Assembly: GCA_945901025.1 (NCBI GenBank)
Contig: CAMDJW010000001.1
Span: forward strand, 186,001 to 250,000
Reading direction: 5' to 3'
DNA from: Spirosoma fluviale
Lineage (GTDB): Bacteria; Bacteroidota; Bacteroidia; Cytophagales; Spirosomataceae
Length of the DNA: 64,000 bases
Part shown: positions 24,210 to 39,397 of the stretch, one piece after another
How the letters are laid out: every line of letters begins with the position of its first letter
Numbering within the stretch: the stretch's first letter is position 1
The notes under the pieces: generated by a model
Told to the model about the DNA's origin: nothing
The model's input: only the letters and a program-made list of their open reading frames with translations
The model's database searches: none
Translations under genes and position numbers: made by a program

Positions 24210-24674
24210 CTAAAATAATGGAGTATTTCTGATCAAACTTTCTTCTAAAGAAATAAAAGTCTCAGTCCTTTGAATGCCATTAACTTTTTGAATTTTATCA
24301 TGTAAAACTTCTCTAAGATGCTGAGTATCTCTACAAATAATTTTAGCGAAAATCGAATAAATACCCGTAGTATAATGAATATTAACCACCTCCGGAATTT
24401 CTTCAAGTTGTTTAGCCACATCCGCGTATAAACTACTTTTATCTAAATAAATACCCAAAAACGCACATATATCCCAACCGATCTTCGAGTAATCAATGAG
24501 TAATTGAGAACCTTTAACGATACCTAAAGCTTGCATTTTTTTCATGCGAACATGTACAGTCCCACCAGAAACTTCCAATCGATTACCTATTTCAGTAAAG
24601 GGTAAATTAGCATCTGATACTAAGATTTCTAATATTTTATAATCTAGTGGGTCAAGGTCTTGCTTACGATCCAT
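24210..24674 (-). CDS. Lrp/AsnC-family transcriptional regulator
   Basis: This 154-residue protein has an N-terminal winged HTH, LDYKILEILVSDANLPFTEI followed by GNRLEVSGGTVHVRMKKMQ, and a C-terminal RAM ligand-binding domain with HYTTGIYSIFAKIICRDTQHL. Lrp-type regulators form octamers and respond to amino acids. Neighbours are sufB downstream on the same strand and the divergent tRNA-like RNA gene. The regulated genes are not evident, but the 134-nt divergent region could carry a binding site. The start is ATG at 24674. Confidence 0.93.
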   Translation of the reverse strand: MDRKQDLDPLDYKILEILVSDANLPFTEIGNRLEVSGGTVHVRMKKMQALGIVKGSQLLIDYSKIGWDICAFLGIYLDKSSLYADVAKQLEEIPEVVNIHYTTGIYSIFAKIICRDTQHLREVLHDKIQKVNGIQRTETFISLEESLIRNTPLF

Positions 24675-24742
24675 GAATAAATTAAAATTAAATAGTGTAT
24701 TTGTTAAAATATTTACAAAAAAAAGACAATTTTATTAAATAA

Positions 24743-24774
24743 TTTTGAATTTATACTTTACCACATTATATTTG
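24743..24774 (+). promoter_or_regulatory. Bacteroidota-type promoter for the tRNA-like RNA
   Basis: TTTTG at 24743-24747, exactly 19 nt of spacing, then TATATTTG at 24767-24774. This fits the Bacteroidota vegetative consensus TTG-N19-TAnnTTTG fully. Transcription would start near 24781, about 28 nt before the RNA's mature 5' end. Confidence 0.65.
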
Positions 24775-24808
24775 TTGACTTATTAATTACAAAGGTAGTT
24801 AAATTTAT

Positions 24809-24951
24809 TGTAGGGTGATGAAATTGGCAGACGTGCCCTCCTGTCTCGGGGGTGGTGATTCTGGGATAAACGCGGCATAACGGGTTGACCACTAAGTTAG
24901 TTCTGTGTCGTGGCTAACCACATCTTGGAGGTTCGAATCCTTCTCCTACAG
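24809..24951 (+). ncRNA. Unusual class II tRNA-like RNA with a 74-nt variable region
   Basis: The RNA folds as a tRNA. The 7-bp acceptor is TGTAGGG (24809-24815) with TCCTACA (24944-24950), with one G-U pair. The 3-bp D stem ATG/CGT encloses AAATTGGCAGA, which has the GG for tertiary contact. The T stem GGAGG/CCTTC holds the loop TTCGAAT. The middle arm is CCCTC/GGGGG with loop CTGTCTC. Read canonically, the anticodon is GUC (Asp) but position 37 is U, not a purine. The variable region 24853-24926 is 74 nt and contains a 10-bp hairpin (24883-24892 with 24910-24919, one G-U and one mismatch). The discriminator is G and no CCA is encoded. It is flanked by its own promoter and terminator. Function unknown: it could be a divergent Ser- or Leu-type tRNA, a non-translating tRNA or a decayed tRNA. 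Confidence 0.7.
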
Positions 24952-24987
24952 CAATTAGTTTTTAGTTTGTTGATGAAGTGTAATGTT

Positions 24988-25018
24988 AAAAGCAATCATA
25001 TTTTAGGATTGCTTTTTT
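24988..25018 (+). terminator. Intrinsic terminator after the tRNA-like RNA
   Basis: A 10-bp perfect stem, AAAAGCAATC paired with GATTGCTTTT, encloses a 9-nt loop and ends in six T residues. It separates the RNA from the peroxiredoxin gene 61 nt downstream, though it could also act as an attenuator for that gene. Confidence 0.85.
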
Positions 25019-25078
25019 ATTTCACCAAAAGTCTATAAATTTAATAGAGAAAATTTCAACCTTTTAAACAAAATCAAA

Positions 25079-25714
25079 ATGAGCTTACGTTTAGGTGACA
25101 TCGCACCAGATTTCCAAGCGGAATCAACCTTAGGGCACATATCCTTTCATGATTGGATCGGAGATTCGTGGGCATTGTTTTTTAGCCACCCAGCTGATTT
25201 TACACCCGTGTGTACGACTGAGTTAGGAAAGACAGCTCTTCTTAATGGAGAATTTACTAAAAGAGGAGTAAAAGCAATTGCTATATCCGTAGACTCCTTA
25301 GAATCTCATAATAAATGGGTACCTGATATCGAGGAGGTTAATTCAGTACAAATGAATTTTCCAATAATAGCAGATCCAGAAAAGAAAGTAGCATTGCTTT
25401 ATGATATGATTCACCCAAATGCCTCTGAAAAAGCAACAGTAAGATCAGTATTTATTATAGGACCAGACAAAAAAATAAAGTTGACATTAACCTATCCGGC
25501 ATCTACTGGTAGAAATTTCACGGAAATTTTACGTGTTATTGATTCATTGCAATTAACGGCAAACTACCAAGTAGCCACACCAGCAGACTGGGTTAATGGA
25601 GAAGATGTAATCATCACTCCAGCCGTATCAGATGCCGATGCAGTGGCGAAATTTCCAAAGGGATTTACTACTATTAAATCATATTTGAGAAAAACACCTC
25701 AACCGAACTTGTAA
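25079..25714 (+). CDS. Peroxiredoxin, 1-Cys (Prx6) type
   Basis: This 211-residue thiol peroxidase has the active site FSHPADFTPVCTTELGKTAL near residue 38, giving the peroxidatic Cys in the PVCTTE context of Prx6 enzymes. The conserved Arg occurs in KATVRSVFIIGPDKKI near 120. The C-terminal extension includes WVNGEDVIITPAVSDADA, typical of the 1-Cys group. No other cysteine is seen. It detoxifies peroxides and is separate from bcp at 9408. It follows the tRNA-like RNA's terminator and is followed by its own terminator. Confidence 0.92.
   Translation: MSLRLGDIAPDFQAESTLGHISFHDWIGDSWALFFSHPADFTPVCTTELGKTALLNGEFTKRGVKAIAISVDSLESHNKWVPDIEEVNSVQMNFPIIADPEKKVALLYDMIHPNASEKATVRSVFIIGPDKKIKLTLTYPASTGRNFTEILRVIDSLQLTANYQVATPADWVNGEDVIITPAVSDADAVAKFPKGFTTIKSYLRKTPQPNL

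Positions 25715-39323: not shown

Positions 39324-39397
<74 letters not shown>

Follow-up and report, generated by a model that had tools for sequence, protein, structure and literature searches.

The window analysed here, a stretch of 64,000 nucleotides, encodes a tRNA-like RNA at 24809-24952 of its plus strand, located between a divergently oriented gene for a regulator of the Lrp/AsnC family and a gene for a peroxiredoxin. The features of the locus are as follows.

24210-24674, minus strand: gene for a transcription regulator of the Lrp/AsnC family, 154 aa (Pfam PF01037, 4.9e-19; PF13404, 2.2e-12)
24743-24774, plus strand: promoter of the Bacteroidota type, TTTTG-N19-TATATTTG (from the sequence; enriched upstream of homologues)
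24809-24952, plus strand: tRNA-like RNA from T1 to C74, with G73 at 24951 and C74 at 24952 (137 bits with covariance model R1, the window copy being among the 14 sequences that built the model)
24809-24815 with 24944-24950, plus strand: acceptor stem TGTAGGG/TCCTACA, one G-U (covariation)
24818-24834, plus strand: D arm with a 3-bp stem, which covaries, and a leucine-tRNA-like loop with GG, AAATTGGCAGA
24836-24852, plus strand: anticodon-like arm CCCTC-CTGTCTC-GGGGG (sequence; conservation and covariation in the family)
24854-24924, plus strand: variable domain, comprising V1, internal loop, V2 and an apex with GGGTTGACCACTAA
24854-24857 with 24921-24924, plus strand: helix V1, 4 bp (covariation)
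24858-24870 (GGGATAAA side) and 24914-24920 (CTAAC side), plus strand: asymmetric internal loop of the variable domain (conserved strands)
24871-24877 with about 24906-24913, plus strand: helix V2 (covariation)
24927-24943, plus strand: T arm, with loop TTCGAAT at 24932-24938 (covariation, conservation)
24957-25018, plus strand: 3' trailer with GTTTGTTGATGAAGTG, then intrinsic terminator (sequence; the trailer core recurs in homologues)
about 24990-25018, plus strand: hairpin and T-run of the terminator (sequence)
25079-25714, plus strand: peroxiredoxin gene, the downstream flank of the RNA

Read from T1 to G73 the RNA is 143 nt long, and its acceptor stem, D arm with GG, middle arm and TTCGAAT T loop are all present as described in an earlier interpretation of this DNA (the sequence-only reading). 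The flanking promoter and terminator which it had pointed out are also there, the former about 35 nt upstream and the latter, a hairpin with a T-run, about 40 nt downstream; both patterns are enriched near homologues. Comparison with the tRNAs of the host bore out the proposed likeness of the D loop, AAATTGGCAGA, to leucine tRNAs. The suggestion that the discriminator is G as in serine tRNAs holds for one of the three serine tRNAs examined; in L102 and L108, both serine tRNAs of the host, position 73 appears to be A and not G.

Folded as a single sequence, the window RNA shows no exceptional stability (z -0.73); in the fold of lowest energy its D/anticodon region is rearranged. The only call made by ARAGORN in the window was a tRNA-Ala at 39324, with no tRNA or tmRNA at 24809-24952. 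Similarly, Rfam 15 at gathering scores gave only the tRNA-Ala at 39324, with RF00005 absent at 24809-24952; when 24300-25500 was scanned permissively, up to E 5, there was still no tRNA match. The RNA has a cloverleaf of the RF00005 type, with a 7-bp acceptor, a 5-bp T stem and a TTCGA loop, and no score match to RF00005. According to the sequence-only reading, a match to an Rfam or tRNA family already described would make this a known RNA; for the long form neither program gave one.

Homologues were sought by a DNA search with the window RNA. At E <= 1 this search had matches to 51 of 59 genomes (its own included), and some of the matches were weak. Fourteen extracted copies were aligned without structure and used to build the covariance model R1. 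A strong match to R1 (E <= 1e-18, taken as the dividing line between the tRNA-like RNA and class II tRNAs) was found in 222 of the 291 genomes of the host order; the weaker matches, of 83-87 nt, were mostly ordinary leucine tRNAs among those examined. The other 69 genomes of the order were sorted by hand. Seven have a short form of the RNA, four have copies running into a contig end (confirmed for G049 and G182, judged from position for G151 and G166) and 58 have weaker matches or none, 23 of these having been searched again; strict filters may have cost some weak copies in this sorting. The absence of a strong match in the 58 genomes indicates that the tRNA-like RNA is not needed everywhere. 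Beyond the host order, a search of the phylum (296 genomes) found matches at E <= 1e-18, counted by hand, in 20 of 284 genomes, which belong to families f23 (5), f24 (8) and f27 (5) of the same class and f66 (2) of another class. Four of the 119 genomes searched in this second class carry the RNA, in families f59 and f66. Carriers among the matches listed are Dyadobacter, Spirosoma, Runella, Emticicia, Algoriphagus, Cyclobacterium, Flammeovirga, Portibacter and Chitinophagaceae. It is clear that the RNA belongs to a family, and one without an entry in Rfam 15; a literature search, with subscription papers mostly outside its reach, found no description of it, and a plasmid search gave no match.

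Copies occur singly, in tandem (as many as 5 at the loci examined) or dispersed (L136, L138, L140). At these three loci and at G308:C17 the dispersed copies are located roughly 2-18 kb from one another and have unrelated genes on either side, which suggests local duplication or mobility.

The compensatory changes that the sequence-only reading had proposed looking for among relatives were found. In the structure-free alignment of 14 homologues 91.5% of the cells were paired and 18 of the 31 pairs had changed on both sides, with a covariation score reached by none of 500 shuffles. An alignment of 108 distinct copies, which was fitted to the model, had 95.0% of its cells paired and two-sided changes in 24 of the 31 pairs, and again none of 500 shuffles reached the score. 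All six helices covary. The weakest is V2, with 79.2% of its cells paired, partly because its register shifts. The 10-bp hairpin noted in the variable region by the sequence-only reading corresponds to the V2 portion, and the region as a whole is more accurately seen as two helices, V1 and V2, on either side of a conserved internal loop. A further proposal, that this region could switch by refolding through GTGG-CTAA-CCAC, describes a pairing that is possible in the window copy; only 8 of 107 distinct copies can form all four pairs, and only 1 has the exact letters, so that the alternative pairing is mostly not conserved and does not support a switch.

Motif counts in the variable domain leave out the 12 of 238 distinct copies without a fully paired arm. 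Both G[AG][ATC]AAA and CTAA, whose positions were not forced, are found in 151 of the 206 distinct chromosomal copies with a paired arm; the apex motif GG[TAG][TAC]GACCAC is found in 75 of these 206 compared with 19 of 20 phage copies. Several T stems carry one or two extra nucleotides. By eye, a hairpin is inserted in the D loop of 10 of 24 phage copies (L297, L300, L302-L307, L313, L318). L077, L128 and L132 have inserted palindromes in the D or variable arm, as if a small repeat element had entered the RNA gene; the palindromes of L077 and L128 are related to CCCGATAGCTATCGGG.

Outside the RNA itself, 65 of 225 distinct copies have the promoter pattern TTTG-N17-23-TANNTTTG upstream, where 30 dinucleotide-based randomisations gave 0.6 on average, and 66 of 228 have the terminator pattern, where five randomisations gave 1-8; these strict patterns are thus unmatched in most copies. 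The trailer with GTTTGTTGATGAAGTG, at 24957-24989 of the window between the RNA and its terminator, recurs in 35 of 228 distinct downstream stretches, in Aquirufa, Dyadobacter, Spirosoma, Runella and relatives.

A shortened version of the RNA, 77 nt long, is present in seven genomes of family f12 (L319-L324, L145). It has the same ends, keeps UCUC in its loop (CTATCTC) and has no variable domain, and ARAGORN called it tRNA-Asp(atc) in six of the six cases run. The variable domain can therefore be lost and the tRNA-like core retained. In six loci examined the short form is followed by terminator-like hairpins.

The conservation of individual positions was counted in 105 distinct survey copies that were not chosen by arm pattern (what remained of 115 copies once repeats, the short copy of L145 and two copies of L077 whose arm is disrupted had been removed). 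Their resemblance to the window copy or to model R1 is what brought them into the survey, and this in itself selects for conserved arms; the constancy of the arm in the phage copies and the named copies is built in, because the arm pattern was used to find them. The anticodon-like loop is 7 nt long in all 105 survey copies, and U1-A72, G2-C71, U3-A70, U35, C36, C38, G73 and C74 are invariant. G34 is present in 96 copies and varies in 9. U33 was retained in 84 of the 105, and position 37 is U in 96, C in 7 and G in 2, so that a purine is found there in 2/105. The window copy itself has U33 and G34, but U at 37. In decoding tRNAs U33 and a purine at 37 are near-universal, as was seen in the controls: both were present in 30 of 30 ordinary tRNAs of the host, and among 203 phage tRNAs U33 was found in 202 and a purine at 37 in 201. 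Neither the window copy nor the family therefore has the combination of U33 and purine 37 that marks a decoding tRNA. As 16 of 16 host tRNAs examined encode C74, alone or as part of CCA, the constant GC end of the RNA is a normal tRNA 3' end.

Aspartate identity in bacteria resides in G73, G10, G34, U35, C36 and C38 (PMC9976931, Table 1). U35, C36, C38 and G73 are each present in 105 of 105 copies; at position 10 there is an A in 69 copies, a U in 23 and a G in 13, and the G1-C72 of bacterial tRNA-Asp is not present, the pair being U-A throughout. The GUC (Asp) loop singled out by the sequence-only reading has proved to be the most telling part of the RNA. Since the invariant positions are of the kind that sets aminoacylation identity, and U33 and purine 37 are not kept, the pattern fits an aminoacylation substrate, nearest to aspartate identity, and not a decoder.

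The regulator beside the RNA has both an AsnC-type helix-turn-helix (PF13404) and a ligand-binding domain (PF01037) over the cut-off, and is a member of the Lrp/AsnC family. When neighbouring reading frames were clustered this was the one outstanding recurrent family, present at 30 of 55 loci. By tblastn a divergent Lrp/AsnC gene adjoins 90 of 160 distinct testable arrays of the RNA (164 minus four places present in two loci), at a distance of 122-245 nt (median 159), and the remaining 70 have no such gene next to them; the loci lacking the regulator include secondary dispersed copies. Other neighbours vary, with a SufB/D-type family (identified by Pfam for the window member only) at 8 of 55 loci.

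The RNA is also found in phages. A pattern scan of IMG/VR gave 24 contigs, each with one strong R1 match of 76-127 bits in the piece examined, and among the INPHARED phages one record of 636 kb, LR756504.1, has a full-length copy with 75.5% identity and 113.7 bits. In 22 of these 25 viral loci the RNA is no more than 100 nt from a gene for a tRNA or tmRNA, and in 12 the distance is 4 nt; the phage arrays reach 26 tRNA/tmRNA genes within the piece examined. A tRNA-Asp is also present in 8 of the 25 pieces, and the Lrp/AsnC gene is absent from all of them. Nine of the 25 records have a terminase domain that scores over the cut-off, several records being fragments; for the other 16 the viral label rests on the collections. 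Two of ten reading frames checked were outer-membrane barrels, and both of the records concerned carry a terminase.

Several known classes of RNA resemble this one in part. With bacterial tRNA-Asp (RF00005) it shares the 7/5 acceptor-T fold, GUC loop, C38, G73, G2-C71 and encoded C74; it differs in U1-A72, the rarity of G10, position 37 being mostly U, the loss of U33 from some copies, a leucine-like D arm, a variable domain of tens of nucleotides and the lack of an RF00005 match. The class II leucine and serine tRNAs likewise have a long variable region, and there are likenesses in the D loop (leucine) and in G73 (one of three host serine tRNAs), but the variable domain here is not a short arm: it has two helices and, between them, a conserved internal loop. 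The anticodon loop is unlike that of either. Allo-tRNAs, another option raised by the sequence-only reading, have in common with it an unusual structure and GUC, which is among their reported anticodons; as they are defined in PMC7609411 by 8/4 or 9/3 branches, the 7/5 branch seen here led us to reject that assignment. A tRNA-Sec was rejected on similar grounds, as the bacterial form is described as having an 8/5 fold and UCA anticodon (PMC5330540) whereas this RNA has a 7/5 fold and NUC loop. Like tmRNA it combines tRNA-like ends with a large inserted domain, and tmRNA shares some of the phage arrays. The marks of tmRNA are of the Ala type, in contrast to the Asp-type marks of this RNA, which also has an anticodon-like arm; ARAGORN called no tmRNA in the window and this identification too was rejected.

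Because the marks of an aspartate tRNA are mostly kept and those of codon reading are not, the chromosomal and phage copies together are probably an RNA family with its own job. The explanation that we favour, as a good possibility which falls short of being probable, is that it is a CCA-tailed, probably aspartylated, non-decoding tRNA-like RNA with a separate job linked to translation. The RNA would be transcribed either under its own promoter or as part of a tRNA array, and the transcript would be trimmed like a tRNA before addition of CCA. Judged by its identity positions, charging would most likely be by AspRS, probably reading G73, U35, C36, C38 and usually G34. The failure to keep U33 and purine 37, together with the large structured domain in the variable region, suggests that it would not serve as an ordinary elongator. 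Charged or uncharged, it may then donate aspartyl groups or signal the supply of aspartate or of amino acids; its amount in the host would probably be set by the divergent Lrp/AsnC regulator. Some large phages with their own set of tRNAs bring this RNA too. Counting against the explanation are the rarity of G10, the lack of G1-C72, the 9 copies in which G34 varies, the 70 arrays with no Lrp/AsnC gene adjoining, the absence of that gene from the phage pieces and the 58 genomes of the order without a strong match. Among the options listed in the sequence-only reading, a divergent tRNA or non-translating amino-acid donor fits best. Its first observation was right and understated, and its interpretation is partly supported.

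It is somewhat unlikely, but deserves serious weight, that the RNA is instead an uncharged regulatory mimic of tRNA, a small RNA that binds or titrates a synthetase, a modification enzyme or the regulator. The Lrp/AsnC neighbour, the tandem arrays of up to 5 copies and the conserved internal loop of the variable domain would all suit such a role, for which there is a precedent in tRNAOther, a pseudo-tRNA of Bacillus cereus reported not to work in translation (PMC3399842); the likeness to tRNAOther is by description only, and that RNA is from a different phylum. Mimicry of shape, however, would not require G73-C74 and the identity positions to be invariant across the phylum, nor would it lead one to expect phages to site the RNA among tRNAs and tmRNA. 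That position in phage arrays would be natural for an unusual but ordinary aspartate tRNA decoding GAC/GAU (or GAN), as would the invariant U35 and C36, the G34 of 96/105 copies and the naming of the short form as tRNA-Asp(atc) in 6/6 cases. We consider this unlikely, given that U33 has been lost from 21 of 105 copies and a non-purine is found at 37 in 103 of 105, positions almost totally conserved in the controls, that some T stems have extra nucleotides, and that a normal tRNA-Asp is already present in the host and in 8/25 phage pieces.

A smaller chance still is given to a carrier for RNA-dependent asparagine formation, in which AspRS would load aspartate, GatCAB would amidate it by way of U1-A72 and the AsnC-type regulator would sense the product. 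The U1-A72 pair, present in 105/105 copies, is the pair of tRNA-Asn that bacterial GatCAB recognises, as stated in PMC4206432, and among 48 chosen genomes GatB was found in 26 of 26 with the RNA and 18 of 22 without it; the window genome has no AsnB over the cut-off. GatB is, however, also common in the absence of the RNA, and AsnB (over the cut-off in 24 of 26) and AsnRS (26 of 26) accompany the RNA, which shows that there is no general need for an asparagine route; RNA-dependent synthesis as a general replacement for AsnB was rejected on the AsnB count. A fusion of GatB (PF02934, in three of the four) to an AspRS-like part, around 1100 aa in length, was observed in 4 of 291 genomes. Its AspRS-like part is 40-43% identical to the usual synthetase of about 590 aa, and at three loci examined (L359, L360, L361) the fusion gene has as its neighbour an amidase-like gene, judged by eye to be GatA. 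Three genomes with the fusion (G280, G298, G103) lack the RNA but the fourth, G086, has it, which counts against the asparagine route; the idea that loss of the RNA is tied to the fusion was also rejected.

Phage tRNAs have been proposed to counter defences that target tRNAs (PMC10264068), and the presence of this RNA in phage tRNA sets could mean that hosts and phages alike keep it as a decoy for defence enzymes that cut tRNAs, or as a spare. For a chromosomal family common to several orders and often located beside its own regulator this seems very improbable. Finally, ARAGORN and Rfam miss the RNA and the single sequence is not unusually stable, as might be expected of a decayed tRNA or a chance fold; the covariation, invariant ends and wide presence of the homologues contradict this, and we rejected it, leaving it next to no credence.

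The non-decoding, aspartylated RNA that we favour can be extended to a broader proposal, which is possible though doubtful. The family would then be a class of aminoacyl-RNA that occurs in several Bacteroidota orders, is recognised by its Asp-type identity and charged by a standard synthetase, and is kept out of decoding, with an RNA domain of its own and an amino-acid-sensing regulator. It would serve as a carrier of aspartyl (or asparaginyl) groups or as a supply signal, and giant phages would include it beside tRNAs and tmRNA because it is important to translation. A tRNA-like RNA is present in several orders and in phage tRNA arrays, yet in its long form it is missed by ARAGORN, and it is missed by Rfam 15. 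The adjoining Lrp/AsnC regulator gains in it a candidate target. If the RNA is charged but does not decode, it would offer a direct way to test both what aminoacyl-RNAs do away from the ribosome and why giant phages have sets of tRNAs.
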